From NCBI GenBank assembly GCA_022825825.1, contig JAJDWA010000033.1, positions 1 to 64,000 of the forward strand: 64,000 nt of DNA, written 5' to 3'. The stretch comes from Candidatus Poribacteria bacterium (lineage in GTDB: Bacteria > Poribacteria > WGA-4E > WGA-3G). Below, one piece after another: positions 1-43,563 of the stretch. The position numbers were made by a program, and so were the translations under genes. Numbering within the stretch: the stretch's first letter is position 1; each line of letters begins with the position of its first letter. The notes below the pieces were generated by a model. It searched no databases and was not told where the DNA came from. It saw nothing but the letters and a program-made list of their open reading frames with translations.

Positions 1-528
1 TATAATTGGACTTTCGGTATGAAAAAGTTTGGGTGGTTTCCTGCAAATGAAGTTGAAATGTTATCTCAAGGCAGATGCAAGTATTACTGCGGCAGATATA
101 CTGATATAGGTTCACCAGGTTATAGAGCAGAAGATGGAGAACTATTACCTGTTACGCTATCTTTATTTAATCCTCGAATAAATCAAGATGGTTCGGTTGT
201 GATAAGCTGGGTTACTGAATCAGAGGTGGATAATGCGGGTTTTAATGTCCTACGAAGTGAAAAACTGAAAGGTCCGTTTATTAAGATTAACCCGAAACTT
301 ATTCAAGGTGCTGGCACTACGGGTGAACAAAATGAATATGTATGGACAGATAATACTGCTAAACGGAATGTTGAGTATTACTATCAGATTGAGGACGTAT
401 CATTTGCAGGTGTGCGCCAGACTCTCGCTACAAAACGGGTGAAAGGCATCTTTACAGCTAAGAATAGACGAACTACAAGTTGGGGAAATTTGAAACGTGA
501 GCTCAATTTAAAATATAGCAGATTTTAG
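1..528 (+). CDS. C-terminal part of a secreted protein with a fibronectin-like domain and WGxLK tail
   Basis: The frame is open from base 1, so the true start lies upstream; an internal ATG is at 19. The visible part contains a segment beginning LPVTLSLFNPRI, followed by a beta-sandwich-like stretch (SWVTESEVDNAGFNVLRS, then an ending rich in Tyr). This pattern is known from extracellular proteins that end in a fibronectin-like module. The last 20 residues contain TTSWGNLKRE, the same tail found on five other exported proteins in this window, although here nine further residues follow the Lys. The protein is probably exported, but its N-terminal domains and function cannot be seen. Confidence is good that it is coding and low on role. 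Confidence 0.75.
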   Translation, partial: YNWTFGMKKFGWFPANEVEMLSQGRCKYYCGRYTDIGSPGYRAEDGELLPVTLSLFNPRINQDGSVVISWVTESEVDNAGFNVLRSEKLKGPFIKINPKLIQGAGTTGEQNEYVWTDNTAKRNVEYYYQIEDVSFAGVRQTLATKRVKGIFTAKNRRTTSWGNLKRELNLKYSRF

Positions 529-696
529 AATTAATTGGACATTACGATTGGCAGAATAAACGTGTAATATTCTGCATTAGTTAGGAAACCGCCCTGCTTC
601 CAGTGCTACAGCAGCGTCCAAATAATTATAGGCTTTACGATAATAGGATTTAAAGTTTCCGGACAAATATTAGGAAAGAAATGTTAAAATGTGTAA

Positions 697-722
697 GCGC
701 GTTTCATCAAGAACGCGCCTAC
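697..722 (-). repeat. REP-like hairpin with GTAG foot
   Basis: Perfect 7-bp stem (697-703 with 712-718) followed by CTAC, i.e. GTAG at the 5' foot when read on the minus strand. It lies between groEL and the window's first gene and could also act as the groEL 3' hairpin. The rest of 529-777 shows no gene; a partial copy of the loop sequence (GTTAGGAAACC) is at 581-591. Confidence 0.6.
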
Positions 723-777
723 AATTTGTATGTCATGACTGTGGGGTATTCCCAATAGCCGTAAGAGATTTACATTA

Positions 778-2412
778 TTAGTGCATGTGGCCGTCATGAG
801 GATCACCAGCTTCAGAAAAGTCGGGTGGTTCTTCAATCTCCGTGATCAAGGTCTCCGTAGTCAAGAGTAAGCCTGCAATACTTGAGGCGTTCTGTAGTGC
901 CGACCGGACAACTTTTGCAGGGTCAATGACACCATATTCAAACATGTCACCGTATTCTTCAATAGATGCATTGAATCCGTAGTTACCTTCGCCGCCCTCA
1001 ACTTGTGCGAGGACAACGGCACCTTCTAACCCTGCATTTTCAGCGATTGCACGGGTAGGAGCGCGTAAAGCTTCTCGGACGATGTTAAGACCTGTCCTTT
1101 GGTCCCCCTCAAGTTCAAGTGATTCAATTCCTGCAATAGCACGTAGGAGCGCAATGCCTCCGCCAGGGACAATACCTTCTTCAATAGCGGCGCGAGTCGC
1201 AGAGAGAGCATCTTCACAACGTGCCTTTTTCTCTTTCATTTCTACTTCAGTCGCCGCACCTACGTTAACAACAGCAACGCCGCCAGCCAGTTTCGCAAGA
1301 CGTTCTTCCAATTTTTCACGGTCATAATCAGATGTTGTATCTTCAATCTGTGTGCGTATTTGTGCCACTCTACCTTTAACACTCTCTTTTGCGCCGAATC
1401 CGCCCACAATAGTGGTGTTATCTTTGTCAATTGTAACACGTTGTGCTGTACCTAACATGCCGATGACAATATTTTCTAAACGGATGCCCGCATCTTCAGA
1501 GATCACTTGCCCAGCCGTTAAGACTGCAATATCTTCAAGCATTTCCTTGCGTCTGTCACCGAATCCAGGAGACTTCACAGCTGCAACTTGAAGTGTGCCT
1601 CGTAGCTTGTTCACAACTAATGTAGATAATGCTTCACCTTCCACATCCTCAGCAATAATTAACAAGGGCCGACCGAGTTGTAATACCTTTTCCATAATCG
1701 GTGCAATATCTAATACAGTACTGATTTTCTCTGTGTTAATGAGAATAAATGGGTTCTCAAATTCAACGACCTGCGTTTGCATATCCGTAACAAAGTTAGG
1801 CGATAGAAATCCTCGGTCGAACTGCATTCCTTCAACAATATCAACGGTGGTTTCAGAGGTTTTGCCCTCCTCAATGGTGATAGCACCGTCATTTCCAACC
1901 TTCTCAATTGCGTCTGCGATGAGGGTACCGATATTACTATCATTGGCAGGATCATTAGCTGCAATTGATGCTACCTGCAAAATTTCATCATGCGTGTTAA
2001 CTTCGCGGCTTTGCATAGCGATTGCGCTGACAGCTGCGTCTATTGCTTTGTCTATACCAATCTTTAACTGCGTCGGGTCAGCCCCGGCAGTGACGTTTTT
2101 AAGACCTTCGTGAAGGATTTCTTGTCCTAACAACGTAGCAGTGGTCGTCCCGTCACCAGCAACATCGTTGGTTTTGGTAGCGATGGATTCCAATAATTGG
2201 GCACCCATATTCTCATAAGGGTCCTCAAGTTCAATCTCTTTTGCGACAGTGACGCCGTCGCATGTTACCAGCGGTGCCCCGAAAGATTTTTGAATAACTA
2301 CATTACGCCCGCGTGGGCCGAGTGTTACTTTTACAGCGTTGGCGAGTGTATCGGCACCGCGTTTGAGAGCTACCCTCGCCTCCTGGTCAAAGATTATTTG
2401 CTTTGCTGGCAT
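778..2412 (-). CDS. groEL: Chaperonin GroEL (60 kDa)
   Basis: Cytoplasmic ATP-dependent folding chamber subunit. The sequence is colinear with the family over its full length (about 544 residues). It has the N-terminal DNA-binding-like start [12 protein letters not shown], the nucleotide loop GDGTTT, the apical domain motif [16 protein letters not shown], and the C-terminal [13 protein letters not shown] with the catalytic Asp in [11 protein letters not shown]. The ATG at 2412 is chosen because it has the ribosome site GAGGAGG about 6 nt upstream; a TTG five codons earlier is less likely. The C terminus ends in GDPHDGHMH instead of the usual Gly-Gly-Met repeats. No groES is adjacent, and no CIRCE inverted repeat was seen upstream. 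It is transcribed alone from a consensus promoter. Confidence 0.97.
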
Positions 2413-2472
2413 TAAATTCCTCCTCAAATAATTCTAAAATGGTTTTTGTTTATGTATAATTGAGATGCTTAA

Positions 2473-2638: not shown

Positions 2639-3367
2639 TTAACGCGCAAATGATTGCTTCAGACTTCCCCAGGTGAGAGACAATTTTTGAGCAGGATGAA
2701 CATCAAGCGATCCATCTCCTAATGAAATCGCTGCAATAATCGGAACTGACCCTAATTCTAAAGAGACAGCATCAATTGAGACGATCTCTGTATTCGGATG
2801 TGGATTTTCCCATTTGGTGGTAATTAATCCAGCTTTGTTGCAAGCCGGTCTTTCGTTTGCTGTCCATCCCCATACAGAATTTTCATCCTGAAAGGCTTTT
2901 TCTATATGGCACCAATCATGGGAATTAAAACCTGTCGTCATCTCAAGGGTTTCCTGTTTTCCGCCTTTGTAATTCATCACAAACTTGTAACTTGGTGCCC
3001 CGGCATGTGACCAACCGGTAGCATGGAAAAAATAGATGGCTTTTGCGACGCCTTCAACGGCTATGTCATTAACAGCCTTCGGCCACTCCTGCCGAGGATT
3101 GCCGAAAAGAACGATACCACCATCTATAATCTTGAATTTCACTTTTTTATCGGGACCTTCAAACTCTGCTACTTCACCTATCGGAAGGAGCGCGTAGGTG
3201 TTGTCACCTGCGTTTAGTGTCCACCACTCATGGCCTTCAAATTTGGTGTTTGCGTAAGGTTCAAGGTCAATAGGTACGAATTCTTCTAATGCAAATGTTT
3301 GCCCCACACAAAGAAGCGTAACGACACAAAACATTGCAATTATTAAAAACAACTTAACCAACTTCAT
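2639..3367 (-). CDS. Secreted protein of unknown family with WGxLK tail
   Basis: About 242 residues, beginning with a clear signal peptide (basic MKLVK, then a hydrophobic run ending VGQTFA). The mature part has many aromatic residues and a conserved-looking core (GHEWW, LFGNPRQEWP, HATGWSHAG, TTKWENPHPNTEI), suggesting a compact beta-rich, possibly ligand-binding domain. I do not recognise a named family. The C terminus HPAQKLSLTWGSLKQSFAR matches the tail shared by exported proteins in this window. The ATG at 3367 is preferred over an in-frame start 42 nt upstream because GAGGAGG lies about 9 nt before it. The gene stands alone, flanked by hairpin repeats on both sides. Confidence 0.85.
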   Translation of the reverse strand: MKLVKLFLIIAMFCVVTLLCVGQTFALEEFVPIDLEPYANTKFEGHEWWTLNAGDNTYALLPIGEVAEFEGPDKKVKFKIIDGGIVLFGNPRQEWPKAVNDIAVEGVAKAIYFFHATGWSHAGAPSYKFVMNYKGGKQETLEMTTGFNSHDWCHIEKAFQDENSVWGWTANERPACNKAGLITTKWENPHPNTEIVSIDAVSLELGSVPIIAAISLGDGSLDVHPAQKLSLTWGSLKQSFAR

Positions 3368-3435
3368 GAATAAATACCTCCTCGGTATAAGAAATATAAA
3401 GTTCTTCATGCTTTGATTGGACTCTCATAACCACG

Positions 3436-8200: not shown

Positions 8201-9334
8201 TTAAAAGACAACGACACCTGTTGCTTCAATAAGTCGTGCTTGACTTGGTCCAAAGCGAGGTCCGTACGTTAAGTCTAAATTGAATAGATACAGTTTTACG
8301 CCAATACCGTAGGTGAAATAATCCGTTAGTTCAGGCAGGTTAATCCCTGGTTCAGATTTGTAACCAATACGTAATGCCAACAAGTTACCAAGCCAGTATT
8401 CTAAGCCGAGATTCTTTTGCAAATGCCGCCATTCAAAAGCGCGGAAACCAACGCCTCTATCGGATAGTAACTGTTCTTCCGTCAATTTTTCAGTCCTGTC
8501 TGCGTTAAGCCGTTCCAGATCCGCATGCAATTCTGCTTCATTTTCAGACAACTTATCAACATAAGCAGAGATTCCACTCACAAGGCGAAGATGATTAAAC
8601 CTATCATGATAGAGACTCATGGAAGTACTAACTCTAAGCATTCTCGGTAATGGGTCTGCTTGGTTTTCATCAATAAAAGAGATACCAGGGCCTACATTCT
8701 GTATGACTACCCCCAAAGTTGTAGGCACAGGATCAAATGGTAGAAGATATTGCATTCCTAAATCAACCGCATAGGAACTTCCGGTCTCTCTGCCAAGTAC
8801 CATCCGAATCATCTTACCGTTGATACCTGCTGCCAAAGAGTCCGTTATAGTGTCCGCGTACGAAAAGGTTAATGCCATATTAGTGCCAAGACTTTCTTCG
8901 CGAAGGACATCAGGTGAATCGCTTGTTACCTGAATAGTGCCTTGCCCTTGCAACTGAAGTGTGGCGCCAACAGTCCCCGCATCTCCCAATGGCATTGCTC
9001 CCGAAATGAAGGTGTAATATAACCCTTCACCTGCGTCACCAAAAGGTGCGCTATAATCTGTGTAAAACATAGAGGCTTGTGCCCCTTTTTTGCCAGCCCG
9101 TAATTTGCTTTCTGGCATCTCCGCCAACCCGCTTGGATTCCAAAGCGATGTGGTAACATCACCAGACATAGCCGAAAATGCGTCACCCAAGGCTCTTGCT
9201 CTAGCACCACCACCTAAATTCAGAATTTGCGCCCCCGTCCTTCCTGGACCAGCAAAGACTGTGGTTGGAAAAAAGAAAACTACCGATAAAAGTAGCGTAA
9301 AAAATTTCATCATAACAGCACGCCGTAATCTCAT
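8201..9334 (-). CDS. PorV/PorQ-family outer-membrane beta-barrel protein
   Basis: 377 residues with a signal peptide ending TTVFAG. The N-terminal mature segment has the family signature GGGARARALGDAFSAM, then DVTTSLWNPSGLAEM. The rest is an alternating pattern of amphipathic strands typical of FadL-like barrels, ending in aromatic/hydrophobic VVVF, a usual outer-membrane barrel end. In Bacteroidota, PorV shuttles type IX cargo to the PorU sortase. Here a PorU-like gene is about 1.7 kb away on the opposite strand, which supports a related role. The ATG at 9334 has AAAGGA 6 nt upstream; internal ATGs at 9313 and 9310 are alternatives. Confidence 0.85.
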   Translation of the reverse strand: MRLRRAVMMKFFTLLLSVVFFFPTTVFAGPGRTGAQILNLGGGARARALGDAFSAMSGDVTTSLWNPSGLAEMPESKLRAGKKGAQASMFYTDYSAPFGDAGEGLYYTFISGAMPLGDAGTVGATLQLQGQGTIQVTSDSPDVLREESLGTNMALTFSYADTITDSLAAGINGKMIRMVLGRETGSSYAVDLGMQYLLPFDPVPTTLGVVIQNVGPGISFIDENQADPLPRMLRVSTSMSLYHDRFNHLRLVSGISAYVDKLSENEAELHADLERLNADRTEKLTEEQLLSDRGVGFRAFEWRHLQKNLGLEYWLGNLLALRIGYKSEPGINLPELTDYFTYGIGVKLYLFNLDLTYGPRFGPSQARLIEATGVVVF

Positions 9335-9762: not shown

Positions 9763-10056
9763 ATGGATATAGGAAAAGTCATTGGGACCGTTGTTGCAAC
9801 CCGAAAAGACCCAAGTTTAGAAGGTACACGCCTTCTCGTCGTGCAACCTTTAGATGAAAAACATAATCCTATTGCCGAACCGCTTGTCGCAGTAGATACG
9901 TTACAAGATGCGGGAGTAGGAGAAATAGTCTACATAGTTACTGGAGGAGATGCGGTAGGTGTTATACCCGGAAGACGAATGCCAGTGGATGTAGCAATTG
10001 TTGGTCTTATTGATTCTCTCTCGCTGCTTGAAGAACCGAGTAAAACCTCATCGTAA
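9763..10056 (+). CDS. EutN/CcmL-family microcompartment vertex protein (BMC-P) 1
   Basis: 97 residues, the normal length of the pentameric proteins that cap the vertices of bacterial microcompartment shells. The family signature is seen at the start (IGKVIGTVVATRKDPSLEG followed by LLVVQPL) and in VDTLQDAGVGEIVYIVTGGDA. VGLIDSL near the end is also typical. The ribosome site is weak (GAGA about 8 nt before the ATG). It is first of four genes in the same direction. No hexameric BMC-H shell gene or signature enzyme lies in the window, so the compartment type cannot be told. Confidence 0.9.
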   Translation: MDIGKVIGTVVATRKDPSLEGTRLLVVQPLDEKHNPIAEPLVAVDTLQDAGVGEIVYIVTGGDAVGVIPGRRMPVDVAIVGLIDSLSLLEEPSKTSS

Positions 10057-10113
10057 CTTCGCGAAGTTTTAGTCTTGCATTGCTCGATACTATGCAAAAT
10101 CTTGTAGGTTTTT

Positions 10114-10410
10114 ATGTACCTTGCAAAAGTAATTGGTAAAGCCGTATCTGTGCTTAAGCACCCAGCATATCAAAATCGCACGCTGCTGCTTGTGCAGCCG
10201 TTAAGTCTAAGATCAGAACTTGTTCGCACACCAACAATCGCTGTGGATTATGTAGGGGCAGGTGAAGGCGATACGGTGATTGTAGGGGCAGGGCCTGGCG
10301 TCGCTCAAGAGGTCTTCGGTGTAGAAAACGCCCCTATCCGAGAACTCATAATGGGGATTGTAGATCATTTTGATGTAGAATTTCTGGAGGAGACAAAATG
10401 GAACGAATAA
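10114..10410 (+). CDS. EutN/CcmL-family microcompartment vertex protein (BMC-P) 2
   Basis: 98 residues, paralogous to the gene 57 nt upstream: AKVIGKAVSVLKHPAYQN followed by LLLVQPL, then AVDYVGAGEGDTVIVGAGPGV and IVDHFDVEF. Two vertex paralogues are common in shell loci, where they can form mixed vertices. The last codons overlap the start of the following lipoprotein gene by 13 nt, so the two are very probably translated together. Shell partners must be elsewhere in the genome. Confidence 0.9.
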   Translation: MYLAKVIGKAVSVLKHPAYQNRTLLLVQPLSLRSELVRTPTIAVDYVGAGEGDTVIVGAGPGVAQEVFGVENAPIRELIMGIVDHFDVEFLEETKWNE

Positions 10411-11046: not shown

Positions 11047-14000
11047 ATGGTTATCAAAATGAAGCATACTGTACTATTTACAGCAATTCTTGTTTTTTTC
11101 TTGTCCACTACAGGCACAGAAGCGGTACCAGTTAATCAAAATCATCAATCAGCTGCAAGTGTAATAACCACCAACAGTGGAAAGATTGAGTTGGTAAGTG
11201 CTACATCTCACGGAATAACTGTTCAACTTGTCATCGCCAAATCAGATTTCAAAATCGACACACTGGAACATAACGACAAACAATTTCAGACGCTTTCATT
11301 CCCAGAATGCCGTTACATCACAGGGCCAGGCGTGCCTCGCCTTCCCATGCAAACCACTCTGATTGGTGTCCCACCTACCGCGAGTTTTACATTACGTGTT
11401 GCTGATAGCAGTGACTTTAGCACGTATAAACTCACACACACGCTTGCAGATCGCAGCGTTAATTTTGGACAACACAATTTTAATGATGCGGTATCAAAAC
11501 CAAAATTAGATCAGATTTATACAACCAATCGTTTTTTTCCGCACAACCTTGCTGAAATTAGAACTGCAGGCTGGATTCGGGAGAACCGTGTTCTTCCTAT
11601 CCAACTAAACCCTATTCAGTATAACCCTGTCAGTGGCGAGGTAAAACTCTACCATCGGCTTGTAGTAGAGGTGCAATTCAACGGGGTAGGGAGCGCACCA
11701 TCAGCGATTCAAGGATTCCCTCGTCCAGAATCTTCTGTTTATGAGGAAATGTTTGAAAATCTACTGATCAATCCCCAGCTTGCTAAGCAGTGGCGTTCGC
11801 CAGTTACGCATGCGATCCCAAGGGATGATTCTTTGAGAGGTGGAACAGTCACCACACACAGCTCTGCCTTTTCTGTACCCAGTGCGCCTGCAATTACTTC
11901 ACCTCGCTACAAAGTTTTTATCGCCAAGTCAGGCATGTACCGCATTACAGCAGACGACTTGATAGCAGCTGGCGCTGATATAACAGCTATCAGACCCTCT
12001 ACATTGGCACTCTCTAACAAAGGGAAACAGATTCCAATTTTTGTGCGGAACGCAGACAACGGAAGGACAACAGATAGCACCACTGGCTTTGATGCAGCAG
12101 GTGAAATTATCTTCTACGGCGAACGTCACAGCGGTGAAAAAACCTATTTTGATCCTTATTCAGACGAGAATGTCTATTGGCTTTCGTGGAATGCGGGCCC
12201 GGGACTCCGGATGGAAACGAAAGTCCTCTCCTCAGATATACCTGGACAGTCCGAACCCAAAAACTTTCGGACACGTGTCCATGTTGAAAAGGATAATCAG
12301 TTTCGACGGTTTAAAAATTTTGGTTTGCCAGCAGGAAGTCAGTACGACGAATTTGGCGGGGGGCTCCTGGAACGCCACTTCGTTCTTGAGACTTTACCTG
12401 AGTTGCCAAACGACAGTTGGTTTTGGACGCAACTCACTGCGCCAGAGACAAGAACTTTTCCTTTTACAATTAACGGTGTTGCTGGAACCGGTCAACCTGC
12501 CGCTATACGGGTCGCGTTCCACGGTAGATCGGAAGGTTCTCACTTTACAGAACTATGGTTGAATAACGATGTTGACTTTGGGAGACCTCAGTGGGATGGA
12601 GAAACAGAATTTCAATTTGAAAATCAACAAATCTCCCAATCCGTCCTCAAAAACGGCAGAAATACAATTGGGATGGTTAGCCCTGGAGGGAGAGGTTTGG
12701 ATCTCATAATGCTGAATTGGTTTGAAATAGATTATTGGCGAACTTATGAGGCAGCAAATGATGTACTCCCTTTTTCAATTACGTTAATGCCTGACAGTGA
12801 AACCGGTAATATAAATACCAATTTTAAGGTTGAGTTAAAGAATTTCTCTAAGCCCAATATCGAAATTTATGGTGTTGATGGGACTCGTTACGTTGGTTTA
12901 GCACCAATAGAAGATAGGGATCAACAGGGGGTCTACAATGTCGTTTTTCGGTCATCACAAATTAGGAACATCTCGCAAAGTTCCCTTGATACATCTATTC
13001 AATATATTGCGCTGACGAGCAACAAGTTCCGTAAACCGAAACAAATCATCAAGGATACATTATCGGATTTACGCGGTCAACACAACGGCGCAGATTACAT
13101 CATCATTACAGATACAGAATTTATTCGCGACGTGCAACCTCTCGCAAACTTTCGAAACCAACAGGGGCTGCGAACTAAAGTGGTGGATGTCCAAAATATA
13201 TATGATGAATTTAATCATGGAATTTCTAATCCTTATGCGCTTCGCGATTTTCTGAAGTATGCGTATGAAAACTGGCAACCACCTGCTCCAACCTACGTTT
13301 TGCTGATTGGTGATACCAGTCCAAAAGAAAATATCAGTTTTGTGCCCACAATTCAGGTGCAAATCCCTGGTTACGGTTCATCTGCCAGTGATCACCAGTT
13401 CGTTACTTTCCGCGGCGCGGATAATTTTCCAGACATGTTTATTGGGAGAGTACCAGCAAACAATAGTGTAGATGTACGTATATTCGTTGAACACGCGATA
13501 AACTATGAAACTACATCTGAATTTGGTCCCTGGCACAAACGCATACTTATGCTTGCTGGCTCTGATGAAAGATTTCACGTCCAAACCGATCAACTTATTG
13601 CAGATCGGAATCTTCCCGAAAAATATGAACCTATCCAAATCTATGCGCCGCCTACAGCTGAAGAAGAACTGACATTAGGTGAAGGTACCACGCCTGTCGG
13701 GCGACAGGTGATTGACGGGTTCAACGATGGGGCATCTCTTGTAAACTATATTGGCCATGGTGGGGGCGGTGTCTGGTCATCCTACCGTATGATGGGTTTG
13801 GAGGATCCGCACAAAAACTTAGCTAATATTTCGCAGCTGCCTCTTGTTATTAGTATGACCTGTTATACCGGTCAATTTGACAATCCCACAAGCTGCCTTG
13901 CGGAGGAGTTACTCCGTTCGGAGAGCGGTGGGGCAATCGCGATTATCGGTGGAACAAGTATCGGAGAATTAACAGGGGATTATCTCCTAAATAAAGAAAT

Positions 14001-16242
14001 TTTTGAAGTTATCTTTAACGACAATACACAACACATCGGTGCTATTCTTGCCGAAGCAAAAACACAGTTTCTGATAAACGCACCACATTACTTCGATCTT
14101 AATGAAGTTTTCACTCTTTTCGGCGATCCCGCAACTCGATTGAGATTGCCACACACACAACTACAGGTAACATCTGAAATAGAAGATATATCTGAGCGAA
14201 ATGATTTCGAGGCAGAAACACAGTTATCTATTTCGGGAGAACTACTTAACCCTGATTTTAATGGGGACGTAGAAATTACTGTCCTTCCGAACCCTCCGGA
14301 TAGAAGAATGAAAAGGAGACACGCAAGGCATAGACCTTCAGATACGGTTATTCAACGTGCTATAGACACTACACCTCGGAAGGAAACTGTGGCGGTAATT
14401 GATGGTCAGTTCAAAGCTCAAATTCCGATTCCATTTAATAGTGCGTTTGATGCATGGGATTTGAGAGCTTACGCATGGAATGAGGAAGAAGATGCAATTG
14501 GATACATGCATTATATGCCAATTGAGCGATACATCAAAAACGTTCGTCTTGAACCTTATCCTGTACCCCCGAACCAACCTGTCCATGTTTACGCAGAAGT
14601 TGTCAATGAAAGTTTAATTGATGAAATAACCCTCTATTGGAGTGAGTATGAAATAGAATCCCGCCGCGATGATTTTGAAGTTTACGCAATTCCGATGGTT
14701 CAACATAAGGGAGCAACTTACAGAACTGAGCAACCTATTCCTGCCGATCTGTCAAGTAATCTAATTGATTATTACGTCCTTGTCAAACCCAAGGATGGGC
14801 GCACACTTCAGACAAAAGTTGTCACCTACGAAGTGGGGGAAGCGGACCTCACCGTTTTGGAAAACACTATCAACTGGAGTGCAGATGCCCCCTTTCTCCT
14901 TTCAGCGCAAATCAGAAACCGTGGCACGCTTTTCGCCAAAAACGTGCCTGTCCGTTTTTTCCAAATGCCAGCGACTGACAGCTCTACAGCACAAACAGTG
15001 ACACTTGAAGAACTTAAAAATGCAACGCTTATCGGAGAGGAACAGATTATTCCAGAAGTGCCGCCCGACGGTTTTATTGTAGCAAGTGTCCCGTGGCAAC
15101 CTGCCCCTGGCACGTATCTTGTAACAGTATTTGCAGACATGCCCTCGGAAGAACGACCTGAAGGCATGCTTATTGAACGCACAGAGCAGAATAATAGTGC
15201 GTCACAGGTATTTATTAATAACCAACTCTTCCTTACCCCTGAAAGTCTCAGTCAGCCAATTCAGAGCATAGACGGTATTTTTCGCATAACACTATCGCCA
15301 GAGAGCCTTCAAAGGCATTCAGTGATGACGTTTGAAACGGAAAAGTTGACCATAACAAACCAACCGGATATTACGCATATCTCCACAACGCCTACAGCCT
15401 ATCGTCTAAACTTCAGCCAACAAACCGACTTGACAGGGACAGCATCATTTGTGAAAACCGAGAGCCCAGATGCCCATATCTATATGCGGGACGATGAAAC
15501 AAGGAACTGGATTCGAGTTGGCAAAGAAACAGATCACGGTGAAACTATTTCCGCGGAGGTTAAACTACCAGGAACATTCGCTTTGCTCACACACACAGAT
15601 TCTCGCCCGCCAGCACTGGAATTAACAGCTGAAAATCAGGGATTCATTGATGGTGATTACATCTCCGATACACCCGTTATCTCCGCGAAAATAGAGGACG
15701 CGAACGGTATTGACTCCCGGCCAGAGAATATTATTCTTACCAAAAACGGGAATCGCGTTCCGAAAGATGAATACACAGTATCCGCTTCTCCCACAAGTAG
15801 TAACGTTCTCCTGATAACCTATTCCCCGGTTAATGCGTTGCCAGCAGGTGAATACCGAATTCGGTTGCAGGCACAAGATGCAAATGGCAATGTTGCAGAC
15901 ACCGAGCGGACAGCAAGGGTTGCAGGTGGATTTGAAATTAAGAACATAGCGAATTTTCCAAACCCGTTTCGTCCTGGACAAGGCACTGGAAAAGGGACAC
16001 ACTTCGCCTACTATCTCACAGAAAGTGCGGATAAAGTTACCCTCAAAATTTATACACTCACCGGCAAACTCATCACTACCGTTGATACGCTTGACGCGGC
16101 AACTTCTTATAACGAATATCATTTTGATGGTTTAGATGCCGACGGTGCCCCCCTCGCAAACGGTGTTTATATCTACAAATTCACTGCTACCAAAGGTGAT
16201 GTGCGCGCACAGAAAGTTGGTAAGATAGTGGTTCTTAAGTAG
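11047..16242 (+). CDS. porU: PorU-like C25 (gingipain-family) protease with type IX-like C-terminal domain
   Basis: 1731 residues. N-terminal signal peptide (about 1-27, ending GTEA), a long N-terminal region as in PorU/gingipain pro-domains, then a peptidase C25 domain (about 670-1060). The catalytic dyad is visible as H904 in YIGHGGGG and C939 in SMTCYTGQF. After several beta-sandwich segments comes a C-terminal domain of about 99 residues starting near 1633 (NIANFPNPFRPG) and ending KVGKIVVLK, the FlgD/type A sorting-domain fold. In Bacteroidota, PorU is the cell-surface sortase that cuts cargo C-terminal domains. This protein could be that sortase or a secreted gingipain-type protease. 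A PorV-type barrel is encoded nearby. A second ATG at 11059 is an alternative start. Confidence 0.85.
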   Translation: MVIKMKHTVLFTAILVFFLSTTGTEAVPVNQNHQSAASVITTNSGKIELVSATSHGITVQLVIAKSDFKIDTLEHNDKQFQTLSFPECRYITGPGVPRLPMQTTLIGVPPTASFTLRVADSSDFSTYKLTHTLADRSVNFGQHNFNDAVSKPKLDQIYTTNRFFPHNLAEIRTAGWIRENRVLPIQLNPIQYNPVSGEVKLYHRLVVEVQFNGVGSAPSAIQGFPRPESSVYEEMFENLLINPQLAKQWRSPVTHAIPRDDSLRGGTVTTHSSAFSVPSAPAITSPRYKVFIAKSGMYRITADDLIAAGADITAIRPSTLALSNKGKQIPIFVRNADNGRTTDSTTGFDAAGEIIFYGERHSGEKTYFDPYSDENVYWLSWNAGPGLRMETKVLSSDIPGQSEPKNFRTRVHVEKDNQFRRFKNFGLPAGSQYDEFGGGLLERHFVLETLPELPNDSWFWTQLTAPETRTFPFTINGVAGTGQPAAIRVAFHGRSEGSHFTELWLNNDVDFGRPQWDGETEFQFENQQISQSVLKNGRNTIGMVSPGGRGLDLIMLNWFEIDYWRTYEAANDVLPFSITLMPDSETGNINTNFKVELKNFSKPNIEIYGVDGTRYVGLAPIEDRDQQGVYNVVFRSSQIRNISQSSLDTSIQYIALTSNKFRKPKQIIKDTLSDLRGQHNGADYIIITDTEFIRDVQPLANFRNQQGLRTKVVDVQNIYDEFNHGISNPYALRDFLKYAYENWQPPAPTYVLLIGDTSPKENISFVPTIQVQIPGYGSSASDHQFVTFRGADNFPDMFIGRVPANNSVDVRIFVEHAINYETTSEFGPWHKRILMLAGSDERFHVQTDQLIADRNLPEKYEPIQIYAPPTAEEELTLGEGTTPVGRQVIDGFNDGASLVNYIGHGGGGVWSSYRMMGLEDPHKNLANISQLPLVISMTCYTGQFDNPTSCLAEELLRSESGGAIAIIGGTSIGELTGDYLLNKEIFEVIFNDNTQHIGAILAEAKTQFLINAPHYFDLNEVFTLFGDPATRLRLPHTQLQVTSEIEDISERNDFEAETQLSISGELLNPDFNGDVEITVLPNPPDRRMKRRHARHRPSDTVIQRAIDTTPRKETVAVIDGQFKAQIPIPFNSAFDAWDLRAYAWNEEEDAIGYMHYMPIERYIKNVRLEPYPVPPNQPVHVYAEVVNESLIDEITLYWSEYEIESRRDDFEVYAIPMVQHKGATYRTEQPIPADLSSNLIDYYVLVKPKDGRTLQTKVVTYEVGEADLTVLENTINWSADAPFLLSAQIRNRGTLFAKNVPVRFFQMPATDSSTAQTVTLEELKNATLIGEEQIIPEVPPDGFIVASVPWQPAPGTYLVTVFADMPSEERPEGMLIERTEQNNSASQVFINNQLFLTPESLSQPIQSIDGIFRITLSPESLQRHSVMTFETEKLTITNQPDITHISTTPTAYRLNFSQQTDLTGTASFVKTESPDAHIYMRDDETRNWIRVGKETDHGETISAEVKLPGTFALLTHTDSRPPALELTAENQGFIDGDYISDTPVISAKIEDANGIDSRPENIILTKNGNRVPKDEYTVSASPTSSNVLLITYSPVNALPAGEYRIRLQAQDANGNVADTERTARVAGGFEIKNIANFPNPFRPGQGTGKGTHFAYYLTESADKVTLKIYTLTGKLITTVDTLDAATSYNEYHFDGLDADGAPLANGVYIYKFTATKGDVRAQKVGKIVVLK

Positions 16243-18299: not shown

Positions 18300-19115
18300 A
18301 TGAATTTTGTTAATATGTTTAGAGAATTAAATAGCGGCAAACGCATAGGACGTTTCGCCTTCATCATAATGGTCCTTATCATTGGAGTCGCTTTCAGTGT
18401 ATACGCTGGCAAAGATGACTGCACAAATATAGAGGGCGCAGGTGCTGTCGCTATTAAAGAGGTTGCTAAAGAAGATGTTGGTGTTGCAAACGATTACGAC
18501 GAAGTCGTTGAAGAGGACGATCGCAAAGGTGTTGTCTACCTTGCTTTGATTGGTGGCGATCAACCGAAAGCAAATGCCTGCGGACTTATTCCAAAGAATG
18601 ATGCAGGTCAATGGACAGGTTGGGGTGGTCCCTTAAACTTTGATAACGTCACTATCGGTGAAGGTGGTGGTACCCGAAACCATATCGTTATCGGTGGCAC
18701 CTATTTTGAACGTGGTATCGGCGCACATGCTGTTGGCACTTTTGTTTACGATTTAACAGGAGATAGCTACCGTAAATTTGAGGCGTATGTCGGTATGTCC
18801 GATGAAAAAGACCCAGGAGGCTGCGGTCACGGCGGTAGCAGTGATTTCACTTTTTCTATTGATGGAAAAGAGGCTTTTAAATCTGAACGTCTTACGGGAT
18901 CAGACGGTGGTGAAAATGTTGAAGCGGTCAAGGTCGAATTTGACATTCCCGCAAATGCTAAGGAACTCACAATCGTGATGGGTGATGGCGGAGACGGAAT
19001 TGGCTGCGACCATTCAACTATTGGAGATGCTAAACTCCTCACCGCACAAGCGCTTGCGGTAGAACCCGCTAACAAACTCCCGACAATTTGGGGACATCTG
19101 AAAGCGCGCTATTAA
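18300..19115 (+). CDS. Secreted NPCBM-domain protein 1 with WGxLK tail
   Basis: 271 residues. A long N-terminal signal/anchor (hydrophobic run FAFIIMVLIIGVAFSVYAG, about residues 19-38) implies export. The body (about 75-250) is an NPCBM-type carbohydrate-binding module: FERGIGAHAVGTFVYDL, then FEAYVGMSDEKDPGGCGHGG and ELTIVMGDGGDGIGCDH. Cys residues in the Gly-rich loops may form disulphides. The tail VEPANKLPTIWGHLKARY carries the shared WGxLK pattern. The ribosome site is AGGAG. It is followed 188 nt later by a close paralogue. A glycan-binding role at or outside the cell surface is inferred from the domain. Confidence 0.87.
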   Translation: MNFVNMFRELNSGKRIGRFAFIIMVLIIGVAFSVYAGKDDCTNIEGAGAVAIKEVAKEDVGVANDYDEVVEEDDRKGVVYLALIGGDQPKANACGLIPKNDAGQWTGWGGPLNFDNVTIGEGGGTRNHIVIGGTYFERGIGAHAVGTFVYDLTGDSYRKFEAYVGMSDEKDPGGCGHGGSSDFTFSIDGKEAFKSERLTGSDGGENVEAVKVEFDIPANAKELTIVMGDGGDGIGCDHSTIGDAKLLTAQALAVEPANKLPTIWGHLKARY

Positions 19116-19303: not shown

Positions 19304-20080
19304 TTGAAACTTACTAATTTATTTGCTTTAAGCATTTTACTAATCGTTGGTCTTGTCTTTAGTGTGTACGCTGGCAAAAGTGATTGCACAAACCTTGAAG
19401 GTGATGGTGCTGTCCCAATTCAAGAGGTTGCAAGTGAAGATGTTGCCGTTGCAAACGATTACGATGAAGTTGTTGAAGAAGATGACCGTGAAGGAGTCGT
19501 TTACCTTGCTTTAATCGGCGGAAGTCAACCGGCACCGAATGGATGTGGTCTTATTCCAAAAAATCCAGCTGGCGAATGGACAGGTTGGGGCGGTCCCCTA
19601 AACTTTGACAACGTCACTATTGGTGAAGGTGCAACTACTCGAAACCATATCGTTATCGGTGGCACCTATTTTGAGCGTGGCATTGGGGCGCATTCCGTTG
19701 GCACTTTTGTTTACGATTTAACCGGGGGTGATTACGTCAGATTTGAGGGATATGCTGGCATGTCTGATGAAAAAGACCCAGGCGGTTGTGGACACGGCGG
19801 CAGTAGTCATTTCATCTTTTCACTTGATGGAACAGAGGTTGTTGCAACCGATACGTTAACAGGTGCTGCGGATGGCGAAAATGTTGAACCGCTAAAGGTT
19901 GAATTTGACATACCCGCAAACGCTAAAGAACTCACAATTGTCATGGGCGATGGCGGCGATGGGTTAGGATGCGATCACTCATCACTCGGTGATGCCAAAC
20001 TCATCACCTCACAAGCAACCGCAGTTGAACCTGCTAACAAACTTCCCACAATTTGGGGTTCTCTGAAAGCACGTTATTAG
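19304..20080 (+). CDS. Secreted NPCBM-domain protein 2 with WGxLK tail
   Basis: 258 residues, starting with TTG; GGAGG is 9 nt upstream and no in-frame ATG exists nearby. Signal peptide MKLTNLFALSILLIVGLVFSVYAG. The body is colinear with the preceding gene (FERGIGAHSVGTFVYDL, GMSDEKDPGGCGHGGS, ELTIVMGDGGDGLGCDH), so this is a tandem duplication. The tail VEPANKLPTIWGSLKARY is almost identical to that of the paralogue. A terminator-like hairpin follows. It probably binds carbohydrate outside the cytoplasm. Confidence 0.87.
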   Translation: MKLTNLFALSILLIVGLVFSVYAGKSDCTNLEGDGAVPIQEVASEDVAVANDYDEVVEEDDREGVVYLALIGGSQPAPNGCGLIPKNPAGEWTGWGGPLNFDNVTIGEGATTRNHIVIGGTYFERGIGAHSVGTFVYDLTGGDYVRFEGYAGMSDEKDPGGCGHGGSSHFIFSLDGTEVVATDTLTGAADGENVEPLKVEFDIPANAKELTIVMGDGGDGLGCDHSSLGDAKLITSQATAVEPANKLPTIWGSLKARY

Positions 20081-23400: not shown

Positions 23401-23490
23401 GTTTTGTTCACCGAGTTGCGCGTATTTTTCGAGTTCAACGTAGTAGTTCTTTATCGGTTTATGCGTGGGTTTGATATTGAGTTGTGGCAT
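20410..23490 (-). CDS. Single-chain restriction-modification enzyme, type ISP-like (N6-adenine methyltransferase)
   Basis: 1026 residues. The N-terminal region (about 60-150) has a nuclease-like pattern with Asp then GYWEAKDT (ExK), consistent with a PD-(D/E)xK Mrr-like fold. The methyltransferase domain follows: motif I VHIIDPFVGTGNFI and motif IV VIGNPPYNMGQ, typical of gamma-class adenine methyltransferases. The C-terminal part resembles the target recognition domain of type ISP enzymes (LLaBIII-like), including FVGSGCGTQCFPFY. The central helicase of true type ISP enzymes (about 1500-1600 residues) is absent, so this is more like a type IIG arrangement. A PIN-type toxin-antitoxin candidate lies just upstream. 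Confidence 0.87.
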   Translation of the reverse strand: MPQLNIKPTHKPIKNYYVELEKYAQLGEQNEGTVRAAFQSLLQHYCGQSNLTLLCEKTLHTPEQKRITPDGEVVDVYGLPHGYWEAKDTQDDLHIEAAKKFAAGYPSKNIVVQSPTHALLYQNAQLQLDLDITEPTNLVRVLQTFFAYQEANITAWHTAVAEFREIVPELGEQLAALIETERQNNPHFHDAFSKFHQQCQTSINPNLSIDAVEEMLIQHLLTERIFRTVFNNRDFTRRNIIAREIENVIDALTSQTFDRNAFLQSLDPFYVAIERTASTITDFSQKQGFLNTVYEQFFQGFSVKVADTHGIVYTPQPIVDFMVKSVEHILQTEFGRSMSDSGVHIIDPFVGTGNFIVRIMQELDSISLARKYTADPPELQCNEVMLLPYYIASLNIEHQFFTTTNRYVPYQGLCLVDTFEMAEERQMSLFAPENTARVEKQKKTPMFVVIGNPPYNMGQVNENDNNKNRKYETMDKRIKDTYVKDSKARLRTALYDPYVKAIRWGLDRIEEEGIVAFVTNNTFFDGVAFDGMRKHLAEDCDAIYVIDLGGNARKGLKVSDANVFGIRVGVSITLFVKKKQNSSEAPRLFYYRTDDLWNKKQKFDFLNERQHLGGIEWQPIQPDARHTWLTEGLHSEFHSFIAMGSKETNEVKEMNEDVIFQTYSTGISTGRDAWAYNFNRTKLSQNMQKIIQNYNIELIRWGQRTNRDINLDDFVVSDNTKIKWSRDLKAKLKRGKTTEYNENKVRTTLYRPFTKSHLYFDQTMNDVVSIFSSIFPTTKTEKENLVICLTDKGSEKPFMILMSHQLTDRKFVGSGCGTQCFPFYTYDEDGTNRKENITDWALAQFRAHYKDDSISKWDIFHYTYGILHHPEYRQKYEANLKRDLPHIPFAPDFWAFANAGARLADIHVNYESQPEYDQLKLIQNPNVPLNWRVEKMKLAKDKTSLVYNDFLTIDGIPAKALDYRLGTRSALEWVINQSCVKTDKRSGIVNDPNRAEDPEYIVKLIGQVISVSLETVDIVGGLPALQ

Positions 23491-28850: not shown

Positions 28851-28852
28851 AC

Positions 28853-41192: not shown

Positions 41193-41314
41193 AATTGTCC
41201 CTCTGTTCGTAAAAAATTTAAGTCTATTTTCTCATATTTTGTCCCTGCAGGCAAGTGAATTGTGTGCCTGATTTACCCCAGTTTTTGTAGAGGCAAATGT
41301 ACATAAGATTTTTC

Positions 41315-41342
41315 TTGATATTTTTCCAAAGTTTTGTATAAT
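41315..41342 (+). promoter_or_regulatory. Sigma-70-type promoter of the LamG leader
   Basis: TTGATA (41315-41320), 16-nt spacer, perfect TATAAT (41337-41342). The predicted start is near 41349, about 550 nt before the first LamG gene, the same layout as before the NPCBM pair. Confidence 0.65.
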
Positions 41343-41348
41343 TAGTTA

Positions 41349-41738
41349 CAAACAAGTTCAAAATTTGCGTGATGGAAACTATAGGTATTATTTGTTTTTT
41401 GTCTACTTTAGGCGAACATAAGGGATAATTGTTGTCCGATTGGCATCGGGACGGATGCTCAAACAGGACAAAGAATGGCAAAAATGCTAACAGCAACTGC
41501 AATGTCGCACAAACGACTTCAATTAATCTAAGTCAACGCCACAGTTGGTCTATCTCTATGCTTTTATCTATTATTCGATTTATTAACTATCGGTTTACCC
41601 CCCCCTTCCACAGATTTAACATTCGTAATAATATGTCGGTTAACGAACAGGCGAATATCGGTGATATCCGTCAGTCTTTCATCGCGCCCGCACGCTCTTT
41701 ATCTGACTTGGAGCGTTTTGTTGCGGGCTATTTTGTTT
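41349..41738 (+). ncRNA. Candidate leader or small RNA B with C8 block, upstream of the LamG pair
   Basis: Untranslated segment of about 390 nt between a promoter and a terminator-like hairpin. Structures seen: TTGTCC...GGACAA enclosing GCATC/GATGC (about 41432-41467), GTCG/CGAC near 41505, and TTTATTAACTATCGGTTTA followed by eight Cs (41598-41605). The block before and including the Cs matches candidate A at 18.03 kb (TTATTAAC, then GTTTACCCCCCCC). Bases 41739-41901 after it show no gene. No known RNA class recognised. Confidence 0.4.
41686..41738 (+). terminator. Terminator-like hairpin ending leader B
   Basis: GCCCGC (41686-41691) pairs with GCGGGC (41723-41728) and ACGCTC (41692-41697) with GAGCGT (41711-41716), with a 6-nt bulge; TATTTTGTTT follows. 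Weaker than the terminator of leader A. Confidence 0.5.
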
Positions 41739-41901
41739 GCAGAAGGTGGGATATTCCCACCTAATATTTATGAACACAATGCATTAGAGTTCCTATTGTT
41801 ATTTTAGGAACCCTAACCGTAAACTTAATCAGGACTTACACAGGTTTGGGTACCTACTTTAAAGTGCGTAAGTTCTATATTTACTACATAGGAGAAATAA
41901 A

Positions 41902-42687
41902 ATGCGTTTAGATTTGATAAAATGGTTTTACATCAACATTACAATTTTAGTAATGCTAACAGTAGGCGTTATCTCTGCTACAGCAGACCTAAGCGATCCA
42001 ACACTCTCTGTCTATTATAGTTTCGACGGAGATGGTGAGATTGTAAAGGACGGTTCAATCAACGGTAATGATGGTAAAATTGTCGGCGATGTCATGCGAG
42101 AAAAGGGCGTTTTTGGTGATGCCGTGGGCTTGGAAACGAACACGTGGATCGACATGAATGGCCCAGAATTTAAGAACGGACCAGTTGATGGATTCACAAT
42201 TGCGGTTTGGGTTAATCATACCGGTTCTAACGACCCGCAGACGTTACTTGATGCGATCGGCACCGACCACGGAAGTGGCCTTTTCCACATGGAAATTCGC
42301 CCTGGAGGTTTTAGATTTTTCCATCGCGATGGAACAAATACAACTGTTTTCAATATCAACCCAGGGCCGGTGATTGAAGCCAATAAGTGGGTGCATTTTG
42401 CTGGAACTTATGATAGCGAAAATGGCGAAATAAAAACCTATATTAATGGTGAAGAAACTCATTCAGCTGCTGGTTCCGGTAAATGTTCAAACAATTGGGG
42501 TGTTTCTGCTGGAATCGGTCACCATAAGAATGGACGCTGGTTTGAAGGGCTTTTGGATGATTATTATATCTATAACCGTGCTTTGCCAGCAGATGAAATT
42601 AAGAAGGTTATGGATGGGGTAATAACAGCAGTGGAACCCACAGCCAAACTTACTACAACTTGGGGCAACATTAAGTTACGTCAATAG
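41902..42687 (+). CDS. Secreted LamG-domain protein 1 with WGxLK tail
   Basis: 261 residues. Signal peptide ending ISATA. The body is one LamG/concanavalin-like jelly-roll domain (YYSFDGDGEIVKDGSINGND, AVWVNHTG, HFAGTYDSENGEIKTYINGE, GLLDDYYIYNRALPADEIK). Such domains bind glycans or act as adhesion modules. The tail VEPTAKLTTTWGNIKLRQ carries the shared WGxLK pattern. The ribosome site is AGGAG about 9 nt before the ATG. It is followed by a terminator-like hairpin and a close paralogue. Confidence 0.9.
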   Translation: MRLDLIKWFYINITILVMLTVGVISATADLSDPTLSVYYSFDGDGEIVKDGSINGNDGKIVGDVMREKGVFGDAVGLETNTWIDMNGPEFKNGPVDGFTIAVWVNHTGSNDPQTLLDAIGTDHGSGLFHMEIRPGGFRFFHRDGTNTTVFNINPGPVIEANKWVHFAGTYDSENGEIKTYINGEETHSAAGSGKCSNNWGVSAGIGHHKNGRWFEGLLDDYYIYNRALPADEIKKVMDGVITAVEPTAKLTTTWGNIKLRQ

Positions 42688-42703
42688 GATTAATAATGTT
42701 CTT

Positions 42704-42757
42704 TATTTGGCTTGGATTCGGTGATTTGTCGGATTCAAGCCAAATAGTCTTTTTTAA
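42704..42757 (+). terminator. Terminator hairpin after LamG gene 1
   Basis: TATTTGGCTTG (from 42704) pairs with CAAGCCAAATA (to about 42746), followed by GTCTTTTTT. It lies between the paralogues, so the second gene may be expressed at a lower level. Confidence 0.7.
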
Positions 42758-42774
42758 TATATAGGAGGTTATAA

Positions 42775-43563
42775 ATGTGTTTTAATTCGATAAAATGGTT
42801 TCACGTCTATTTTGCAGTTTTAATAATTATGGGAGCGTGTGTGCTATCAGTCCAAGCAGATCTGAAAGACCCAGCGCTATCTGTTTATTATAGTTTTGAC
42901 AAAGAAGGTGAAACTGTTGAAGATGGTTCAATTAATGGTAACAACGGAAAAGTTGAGGGGAACGCTAAATGGGAGAAAGGTGTAATCGGTAAAGCGATTG
43001 CATTAGAATCCAACGTGTGGATTGATATGAATGGTCCGGAATTTAAAAACCCGCCGATCGATGGAATCACACTTGCGGTTTGGGTTAACCATACTGGTTC
43101 TGGAGATCCGCAGACGCTACTTGATGCGATCGGCACTGAAATTGCCAGTGGACTTTACCACGCGGAAATTCGTCCGGCAGGTTTCAGATGGTTTCATAGA
43201 GACGGAACGGACACACAAGTTTTCAATATCAGTCCTGGTCCGGTGATTGAAGCGAATAAATGGGTGCATTTTGCTGGAACGTATGACAGTGATAGCAGTG
43301 ATGTGAAAACCTATATTAATGGTGAAGAGACTCATGCAGTCAAGGGGAGCGGCAGAAAGCTTGAGGAAGACTGGGGAATCTCTGCTGGAATCGGTCACCA
43401 TAAGAATGGACGCTGGTATGCCGGGTTGTTGGATGAGTATTATCTGTTTGGTCGTGCTTTATCTGCAGCTGAAATTAAGCAGGTTATGGATGGCGAATTT
43501 CTTGCTGTGGAACCGGCTGACAAACTCGCGATAACTTGGGGCGATATAAAATCACGTCCATAA
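42775..43563 (+). CDS. Secreted LamG-domain protein 2 with WGxLK tail
   Basis: 262 residues, tandem paralogue of the preceding gene along its whole length (YYSFDKEGETVEDGSINGNN, AVWVNHTGSGDPQTLLDAIG, HFAGTYDSDSSDVKTYINGE, GLLDEYYLFGRALSAAEIK). Signal peptide ending LSVQA. The tail VEPADKLAITWGDIKSRP keeps the shared pattern although other parts have changed, which suggests selection on the tail. The ribosome site is AGGAGG about 7 nt before the ATG. Exported, probably glycan-binding or adhesive. Confidence 0.9.
   Translation: MCFNSIKWFHVYFAVLIIMGACVLSVQADLKDPALSVYYSFDKEGETVEDGSINGNNGKVEGNAKWEKGVIGKAIALESNVWIDMNGPEFKNPPIDGITLAVWVNHTGSGDPQTLLDAIGTEIASGLYHAEIRPAGFRWFHRDGTDTQVFNISPGPVIEANKWVHFAGTYDSDSSDVKTYINGEETHAVKGSGRKLEEDWGISAGIGHHKNGRWYAGLLDEYYLFGRALSAAEIKQVMDGEFLAVEPADKLAITWGDIKSRP

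Follow-up and report, generated by a model that had tools for sequence, protein, structure and literature searches.

Tail-bearing proteins and T9SS-like genes in the window

The window, a 64,000-nt stretch of a Poribacteria contig, encodes six proteins that end in a common short tail, and all six tails were recovered when the DNA was re-read. The first belongs to the C-terminal part of a protein at 1..525 (+), which has no Pfam match and which we call Fn3-like on our own reading of its module; its tail, ending in RTTSWGNLK, lies at about 451-495. An exported protein without a Pfam family is encoded at 2642..3409 (-), with the tail VHPAQKLSLTWGSLK at 2701-2657. An NPCBM-domain exported protein at 18300..19112 (+; tail VEPANKLPTIWGHLK at 19059-19103) has a tandem paralogue at 19304..20077 (+; tail VEPANKLPTIWGSLK at 20024-20068), and a LamG (concanavalin A-like) exported protein at 41902..42684 (+; tail VEPTAKLTTTWGNIK at 42631-42675) has a tandem LamG paralogue at 42775..43560 (+; tail VEPADKLAITWGDIK at 43507-43551). 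The Trp codons of the tails start at 481 (+), 2671 (-), 19089 (+), 20054 (+), 42661 (+), and 43537 (+), and in sequence order 10, 5, 3, 3, 3, and 3 residues lie beyond the final Lys. A search of all six frames of the window for WG.[LIVM]K returned seven matches, six of which are these tails.

As the initial annotation had stated, V-[EH]-P-x-x stands ahead of K-L in five of the six tails, and each of the five proteins with a visible N terminus has a hydrophobic, signal-peptide-like start. It had also described six unrelated bodies; the bodies do differ, but because four of the six proteins form two tandem pairs there are four kinds rather than six. In a structure model of the LamG protein at 41902, the tail has low confidence and is not packed on the body (pLDDT 36-56, compared to 71-96 over residues 31-240, as block means). 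All 29 readable relatives of the Fn3-like protein end in a tail-like sequence, which in 27 has the form W[GAS]x[LIVM]K; this count rests on 30 loci of the 52 matches, with the window protein as one of them. No relatives of the protein at 2642-3409 were found among the collected loci.

The window also encodes two proteins resembling components of the T9SS. A C25 peptidase at 11047..16239 (+) is PorU-like (NF033707, E 3e-114, 382.7 bits, under the 420-bit cut-off; PDB 6za2, E 1.7e-35) and matches gingipains more weakly (Arg-gingipain, E 7e-24; Lys-gingipain, E 1.4e-8). It contains GHGG at residue 903 and CYTG at residue 939, which we take to hold the catalytic His and Cys, and it ends in its own type-A-like C-terminal domain (CTD; FlgD_ig, 15994-16200), with no tail segment before that domain. 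The earlier suggestion of an Arg/Lys-directed C25 protease at this position departs from this picture, the T9SS sortase PorU being closer than the gingipains, and the protein is a candidate sortase of the proposed pathway. A PorV-like outer-membrane protein, encoded at 8204..9334 (-), is a candidate shuttle; it matched PF19572 at E 4e-5 (23.7 bits, below the 27-bit cut-off) and PorV in PDB 6h3i_F at E 2.6e-9, with an E value of only 0.07 against PorV in a genome-wide search.

Sequence, distribution, and position of the tail

The tail comprises about 17 residues with the consensus V-[ED]-[PA]-x-x-K-L-[TA]-T-T-W-[GAS]-x-[LI]-K plus a few further residues. Among 52 tails that were not selected by pattern, Trp was present in 51 and Lys at +4 in all 52. 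Only W, G, and K were invariant in alignment A1; as the tail was also what loci were fetched by, its conservation in A1 and A3 is in part a product of that selection.

For a census, the tail motif was reverse-translated, and the reversed pattern served as a control. The bacterium's own genome contained 50 motif copies and no copy of the reversed control, using a longer DNA pattern. Across the phylum there were 3,857 matches, found in 84 of 84 Poribacteria genomes (2-90 each, median 47), against 8 in total for the controls. The initial annotation had mentioned similar endings in Poribacteria-like proteins; the observation is real and extends far beyond what it described. W-A variants were seen around the tails of two genomes (G029 and G031), and the pattern counts are therefore lower bounds. 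Among the matches listed, 115 of 116 named loci came from Poribacteria; the remaining one (L089), labelled Deltaproteobacteria, has its tail in an ORF of 28 aa next to an esterase-like frame, and we suspect misbinning or a frameshift. With ORF starts and ends read by eye, no common neighbor that could be a dedicated enzyme stood beside the tails in G029 (2 matches) or G031 (4 matches). The 62 tail DNA segments of the own genome were all distinct, and third bases were identical in 48% of codon pairs for the same amino acid, so conservation is at the protein level. The pattern and control counts, together with this codon diversity, rule out an origin by chance or artefact.

Tail position was scored without a position filter, taking the best-scoring place in each ORF of at least 100 aa. 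In the resulting set, which includes the 62 training proteins, 268 of 268 tails lay 1-12 residues from the C terminus. Strict-pattern matches were terminal in 89 of 89 cases (80 of the 116 listed named loci), as were 26 of 27 pattern matches in relatives from other families and classes; the sole exception (L368) lay 36 residues short of the C terminus in a 68-aa ORF. Overall, 0-12 residues follow the motif, with that one exception, and in deep-branching genomes the Lys is sometimes the last or next-to-last residue.

A signal-peptide-like start, called by a hydrophobicity rule rather than SignalP, was present in 178 of 180 complete tail proteins compared to 159 of 345 other ORFs at the same loci, which confirms the enrichment that the initial annotation had put forward as a check. 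The same was true of 237 of 246 proteins with an uncut 5' end in the 268 set, and of 75 of 80 in the listed named loci, where the five misses were ORFs (28-139 codons) preceded by an in-frame stop. By this rule, the tail proteins share the Sec signal peptide of T9SS type A carriers. A lipobox-like site was absent in 50 of 54 tail proteins with a signal peptide.

The bodies of the 62 own-genome tail proteins include LamG, kelch, PD40 propellers, ankyrin, NPCBM, 3-keto-disaccharide hydrolase-like domains, and others, a diversity that rules out a shared homologous domain reaching beyond the tail; the claim of a short tail on different bodies, with no common domain upstream, was thus upheld. The tail could still be a conserved peptide of this lineage that serves as a linker or in oligomerisation, plays no part in sorting, and spread through duplication and domain shuffling. 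LamG paralogues make up 35 of the 62 tail proteins, many tail genes lie in tandem, and the Fn3-like family keeps module and tail together. We nevertheless consider this very unlikely, given that bodies from at least six Pfam families carry the tail, that the diversity of codons reveals selection for the peptide as such, and that the tail is confined to exported proteins and, within them, to the terminus or a CTD border.

Tail segments at the border of T9SS-type CTDs

A segment homologous to the tail was found directly upstream of a T9SS-type-A-like CTD in 7 of 53 CTD proteins of the own genome, with scores of 12.4-37.1 compared to at most 0.3 in the other 46. Those 46, the C25 peptidase of the window included, lack the segment, and the CTD therefore does not need it. 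Many CTD proteins of relatives have the segment as well, and in a set enriched for junctions it preceded the CTD in 71 of 119 cases. The spacing from the segment to the PNPF of the CTD was 8 residues in 71 of 71 junctions, although the offset had been left free. As the segment abuts the CTD start, free-tailed proteins stop roughly at the point at which a CTD would start. C-terminal restriction of the motif, as expected earlier, thus holds for free tails and fails in the strict sense: allowing for the one exception in 27, its places are the C terminus (268/268) and these 71 CTD borders.

The Trp behaves differently in the two contexts. It was kept in 51 of 52 free tails compared to 21 of 71 junctions, where Leu or Phe often replaces it (Fisher p 2e-16, a value that ignores kinship, many junctions being orthologues), and in 20 of 47 junctions when these too had to score over 14. 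CTD matches numbered 28-93 per genome in 21 genomes, and proteins with the segment directly before a CTD rule out that tail and CTD are mutually exclusive. WD40 bodies occurred with all three endings, namely free tail, tail plus CTD, and CTD alone, and 31 of 315 free-tail proteins had a CTD-bearing body homologue at 1e-8; the WD40 likeness may reflect repeat similarity rather than orthology. Loss of a CTD through a recent stop codon was rejected, as the roughly 590 bp that follow each of the 62 free-tail genes contained no CTD remnant.

T9SS-like genes are widespread in the phylum. A SprA-like gene was detected in 83 of 84 genomes (E<=1e-5). In the own genome the alignment consisted of five colinear segments, all within a single 2154-codon frame. 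The SprA-like proteins scored under the curated family cut-off in every genome but G026, whose protein matched that of the own genome at E 1e-9 with 21% identity, and a profile of three sequences retrieved no SprA from PDB at E<=0.01. One genome that is 81% complete (G003) had 33 tail matches and no SprA match. PorV was searched in the own genome only, where a further match (G000:C50) reached E 4e-15. We counted the SprA/Sov translocon, PorU sortase, and PorV shuttle as present, mostly on matches below cut-off. C25 genes were found in 83 of 84 genomes (0-5 copies). The co-occurrence of tail and protease proposed earlier is thus seen in gene presence, while the numbers of the two correlate only weakly (Spearman 0.28, p 0.01, with relatedness and completeness ignored). 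Since SprA-like genes, C25 genes, and tails are all near-universal in the phylum, co-occurrence cannot separate them from any other Poribacterial trait.

The weak correlation would be compatible with the tail being a processing site for a C25 protease, PorU-like or Lys-specific, which would trim it after the invariant Lys and leave it no sorting role of its own; 0-12 residues do lie beyond that Lys, and the junction segment stands where CTD removal is expected. We regard this as quite unlikely. Trimming a few C-terminal residues has no evident use, the Trp four residues ahead of the Lys need not be invariant for it, and Arg takes the Lys position in 5 of 71 junctions. The enzyme of the window best matches PorU, and CTD cleavage in P. 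gingivalis is given as X/(GSA)(VLI), not Lys, in the available text of PMC4560394.

The composition of the tail raises another alternative, an envelope-anchoring or docking motif unrelated to the T9SS, acting either as an amphipathic peptide (Leu, Trp, and Leu/Ile on one face, Lys-rich) or through Lys-mediated covalent attachment to an envelope or scaffold protein, with the CTD junctions as fusions of unrelated tags. The tail is basic, only small residues (A, G, or S) follow the Trp in the 52 unselected tails, and the Lys at +4 is never Arg in these. The terminal or near-terminal Lys of deep-branching genomes fits as well, and the general lack of a lipobox-like site means that another anchor could be needed. 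This alternative is unlikely, in our judgment, because accidental fusions would explain the constant 8-residue spacing, and a Trp whose loss depends on context, less well than a functional relation to the CTD does, and because an invariant Trp and Lys are more than general membrane binding requires.

Relation to known signals and a proposed pathway

The T9SS signals known so far are folded domains: type A is Ig-like, and type B is longer, reaching 235 aa in the accessible part of PMC12618676. Like the type A CTD (TIGR04183/Por_Secre_tail, FlgD_ig-like), the tail is C-terminal, cargo-independent, and carried by proteins with a Sec signal; its homologue stands at the N-terminal border of that CTD, and CTD, SprA-like, PorU-like, and PorV-like genes occur in the same genome. 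Unlike the tail, the type A CTD has an Ig-like fold and here measures mostly 83-94 aa from PNPF, whereas the tail has about 17 aa, a low-confidence model, and no visible CTD motif. The type B CTD (TIGR04131) is a precedent in that a single secretion system has a second class of C-terminal tag, read by a recognition protein of its own (PorP/SprF shuttles), and differs in its length. Neither TIGR04183/FlgD_ig nor any other Pfam or NCBIfam model for the tail was found among the families listed for the 62 tail proteins, which were the 25 with most members out of 42 and out of 39; the 25 out of 39 likewise included no type B CTD family and no PEP-CTERM- or LPXTG-type NCBIfam model.

PEP-CTERM, LPXTG, and GlyGly-CTERM signals resemble the tail as short C-terminal motifs common to many exported proteins. 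They place a transmembrane helix after the motif; the tail, with the few residues that follow it, lacks the helix and basic end of the PEP-CTERM and LPXTG type. Braun lipoprotein is attached through its C-terminal Lys, and the near-terminal, essential Lys of the tail recalls this by analogy only, the two being otherwise dissimilar.

That the tail is a tag is well supported. The initial annotation had proposed a sorting, anchoring, or processing tag unlike type IX domains; the tag fits the terminal restriction, the signal peptides, the several bodies, and the lack of an upstream domain, and the dissimilarity is true of length and not of relationships. We infer the link to the T9SS from the CTD junctions and the T9SS-like genes, and consider the chances about even that a divergent T9SS-like pathway uses the tail as a short tag for sorting or anchoring. 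Tagged proteins would cross the inner membrane via Sec and then be handled at the outer membrane by the SprA-like translocon, PorV-like, and PorU-like proteins, with free-tailed and CTD-tagged proteins perhaps sharing a route or destination. Where a CTD is cut off, the segment would be the stretch remaining on the mature protein. In proteins without a CTD, Trp and Leu may have become fixed because the bare tail is then recognized in its own right, by the PorV-like shuttle, the PorU-like sortase, or another receptor, and holds the protein on the cell surface, perhaps via the invariant Lys.

More tentatively, and somewhat short of even, the bare tail of about 17 residues may be a complete surface-sorting signal, a linear peptide that replaces the folded CTD and derives from (or gave rise to) the sortase-border segment, with the Lys or later residues as attachment point. 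We know of no T9SS signal of 17 residues. In P. gingivalis, surface translocation required the last 22 residues of a CTD, according to the available text of PMC3120885, so by analogy short terminal determinants can matter in the T9SS.

We found no paper or model describing the tail in the open-licence PubMed Central literature or the Pfam and NCBIfam families listed, and in that literature no paper on a C-terminal sorting signal in Poribacteria. Searches for C-terminal motifs gave none on Poribacteria among the matches listed, those for motif strings (KLTTTWG, TTTWGKLK, WGxLK, etc.) gave nothing relevant, and the open-licence papers checked on Poribacteria and T9SS treat, in the parts available, the T9SS of other phyla. 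Kamke et al. 2014 noted that Poribacteria have domains that may belong to the Por sorting family and found no structural genes of the system, in the accessible portion of PMC3909097, a remark on which the SprA-like gene in 83 of 84 genomes bears.

These findings suggest that the tail is an undescribed short protein-sorting signal, and annotators gain a model for some 3,900 pattern matches in 84 genomes. If the proposed role is correct, a 17-residue T9SS-like signal would make recognition by translocon, shuttle, and sortase directly testable and could serve as a small, portable surface-display tag. Poribacteria are known chiefly from marine sponges, and the tail would show where exported lectin-like and repeat proteins, tens of them in each genome, end up throughout the phylum.

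Distribution and carriers of the tail

Six proteins of unrelated body were initially annotated in the window as ending alike, and all six tails were found in the sequence as described, terminating the genes at 1-525 (+), 2642-3409 (-), 18300-19112 (+), 19304-20077 (+), 41902-42684 (+), and 42775-43560 (+). We searched with a degenerate DNA pattern encoding K-[LF]-x-[TSPA]-x-W-G-x-[LIVMF]-K, using the reversed pattern as a control. The window's own genome (5.1 Mb) contained 50 matches compared to 0 for the control, and 62 tail proteins were gathered from its fetched loci on a relaxed reading. The pattern was present in 84/84 Poribacteria genomes, with 2 (G029) to 90 (G033) copies per genome and a phylum total of 3,857 versus 8 for the control. 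A stricter pattern gave at least 116 loci on contigs of named genomes; among the matches listed, 115 were titled Poribacteria and one Deltaproteobacteria. The window therefore probably comes from a Poribacterium, and the tail spans the phylum, including deep-branching families. At locus L089 (JAFDHL010000343.1), it adjoins an esterase-like frame in a contig labelled Deltaproteobacteria that is possibly misbinned or frameshifted. Three tandem tail proteins at L363 (G024:C68) carry an unusually long, mutually similar 10-residue stretch after the Lys, ending E-R-R. In a genome with few copies of the tail, two similar ORFs beginning MPIIRPRLVVELY lie close to the tail genes (L180 13076-15795).

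Using a hydrophobicity rule rather than SignalP, we called a signal-peptide-like start in 178/180 complete tail proteins compared to 159/345 other ORFs of the same loci. A laxer rule gave 237/246 tail proteins of the matrix-scan set and 75/80 of the stricter-pattern set from named loci, while in the window plus nine 12-20 kb stretches the counts were 15/16 tail proteins versus 50/138 others. The bodies are diverse, as had been noted: LamG accounts for 35 of the 62 own-genome tail proteins, and the other types include kelch, PD40, ankyrin, NPCBM, and 3-keto-disaccharide hydrolase-like domains.

Relatives of the Fn3-like module of the window protein at 1-525 were taken from 30 loci out of 52 matches in the own genome and eight same-genus genomes, with no match among relatives outside the genus. 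A tail-like segment terminated all 29 readable proteins, 27 of which fit W[GAS]x[LIVM]K; the departures were L196, where Leu replaces Trp, and L208 (W-A-H-H-K). The type A C-terminal sorting domain (CTD) of the type IX secretion system (T9SS) is often preceded in Bacteroidota by an Fn3-like module with LPV-x-L-x-F; here, a module of the same kind stands before the tail. In one free-tail protein (L210 1453-3309), the Fn3-like module occurs together with WD40 repeats and a lamin-tail domain.

Position, conservation, and predicted structure

A position-specific matrix built on the 62 own-genome tails was scanned over all ORFs 100 aa or longer in the fetched loci and the window; only the top-scoring place in each ORF was kept, and position was not filtered. 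All 268 matches above the 14-bit threshold lay at the C terminus, their last Lys being followed by 1-12 residues (mode 3). Matches to the stricter pattern were likewise terminal (89/89, in 80 named loci), as were 26/27 pattern matches in other families and classes (Lys 0-10 residues from the end); the exception had 36 residues after the Lys in a 68-aa ORF.

Among 52 tails outside selection by the anchoring pattern, the Trp position was W in 51 and L in one, the next residue was only A, G, or S, the last position was K in 52/52, and position -5 was K in 42. The 62 own-genome tail DNA segments were all distinct, with 48% third-base agreement in same-amino-acid codon pairs. AlphaFold modelled a LamG body confidently from a 47-sequence alignment, in which conservation is partly due to selection because the loci had been fetched by tail; from residue 241 on, the tail region had pLDDT block means of 36-56. 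The first PDB match of the model was AbnA domain 4, with many further matches to proteins with a generic lectin-like jelly roll. These traits are those of a short linear motif that would bind another molecule.

The tail segment in front of sorting domains

We expected the tail and the T9SS sorting domain to be mutually exclusive, but this was ruled out by tail motifs directly preceding CTDs. FlgD_ig, a family unspecific enough to match in 5/14 control genomes, matched 64 times in the own genome (E<=0.01), and many of these matches are C-terminal CTDs of the form PNPFNPETWIPY. Sixty stretches around these matches yielded 53 distinct CTDs, the window's included. The tail motif lay immediately N-terminal to seven of them, each time at a distance of 8 residues between its last Lys and PNPF and with scores of 12.4-37.1, versus at most 0.3 in the other 46, the majority, which lack the segment. 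With one junction C terminus as the query against 21 genomes, there were 28-93 matches per genome among the matches listed, and many of the alignments, from several families, also covered the tail segment.

A wider set, enriched for junctions because many had been fetched as such, had the segment in 71/119 CTDs. With the offset left free, 71/71 segments lay 8 residues from PNPF; scores at that offset were at least 5.8 in junctions and at most -9.4 in the other 48 CTDs. The junction consensus was V-E-P-x-G-K-[QKR]-[LF]-[TV]-T-[L 43, W 21, F 6, I 1]-G-x-[IV]-[K 66, R 5] (n=71). Trp occupied its position in 51/52 free tails versus 21/71 junctions (Fisher p 2e-16, orthologues included), or 20/47 at a stricter score. 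Trp is almost fixed where the segment ends the protein and relaxed where a CTD follows, and the C terminus of free-tailed proteins falls about where the CTD would start. Rare free tails with Leu for Trp, like many junction proteins, occur at L048 and L196 (TTVLGALK, TTLLGQMK).

Type IX-like genes and a possible sorting route

On the most economical reading, a divergent T9SS-like pathway handles a class of CTD proteins whose border element is the tail segment, which many proteins carry without a CTD. In Porphyromonas gingivalis, the sortase removes the CTD at its N-terminal border (PMC4560394). A cut at the same border would leave a mature junction protein ending much like a free-tailed one. 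In free-tailed proteins the bare tail may be recognised directly, as suggested by their retention of Trp and Leu. Free tail, tail plus CTD, and CTD alone could then be interchangeable endings; WD40 bodies occur with all three, as expected if so, though their likeness across endings may be repeat similarity. The data show the position of the tail, its exported carriers, its conservation, the junctions, and the presence of T9SS-like genes; from these we infer a shared route, the cleavage site, a reader, and anchoring. No experimental work on any of these proteins was found in the literature searched.

The window's C25 protease (11047-16239 (+)), proposed initially as a possible reader of the tail, is PorU-like (382.7 bits, cut-off 420; PDB 6za2, E 1.7e-35), with GHGG and CYTG motifs and a type-A-like CTD of its own. 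C25 genes are present in 83/84 phylum genomes, mostly in 2-3 copies. Their copy number correlated weakly with tail number (rho 0.28, p 0.01). Co-occurrence carries little weight, because nearly every genome of the phylum has tails, SprA-like genes, and C25 genes. The best PDB match of the gene at 8204-9334 (-) is PorV of the SprA complex (E 2.6e-9); a stronger PorV match lies elsewhere in the own genome (G000:C50). Two tandem EutN/CcmL microcompartment-shell genes (9763-10407) stand between the PorV-like and PorU-like genes, and the window also encodes a type ISP restriction-modification enzyme (20413-23490) and a GmrSD-like restriction enzyme (54303-56021).

The SprA family TIGR04189 matched 83/84 phylum genomes at E<=1e-5 and 0/14 control genomes. 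The divergent own-genome match (G000:C75:112393-116364; L189 7719-14174) comprises five colinear stretches in a single 2154-codon frame. Scores fell under the curated cut-off in all genomes except G026 (508 bits), whose SprA aligned to the own-genome protein at E 1e-9, and a PDB search with a 3-sequence SprA-like profile did not find SprA. G026 has a second SprA-like match besides the one above the cut-off (contigs C30 and C4), which may point to two types of SprA within the phylum. The gene at L189 14524-15702, convergent with the SprA-like one of the own genome, encodes a PD40 propeller protein whose tail has Arg for the first Lys; G020 and G029 have no tail protein at that place. In Kamke et al. 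2014 (PMC3909097), the sorting domain is noted in Poribacteria and the structural genes of the system are reported as not found. A divergent SprA-like T9SS translocon gene is now seen in a phylum whose structural Por genes that paper reported as missing.
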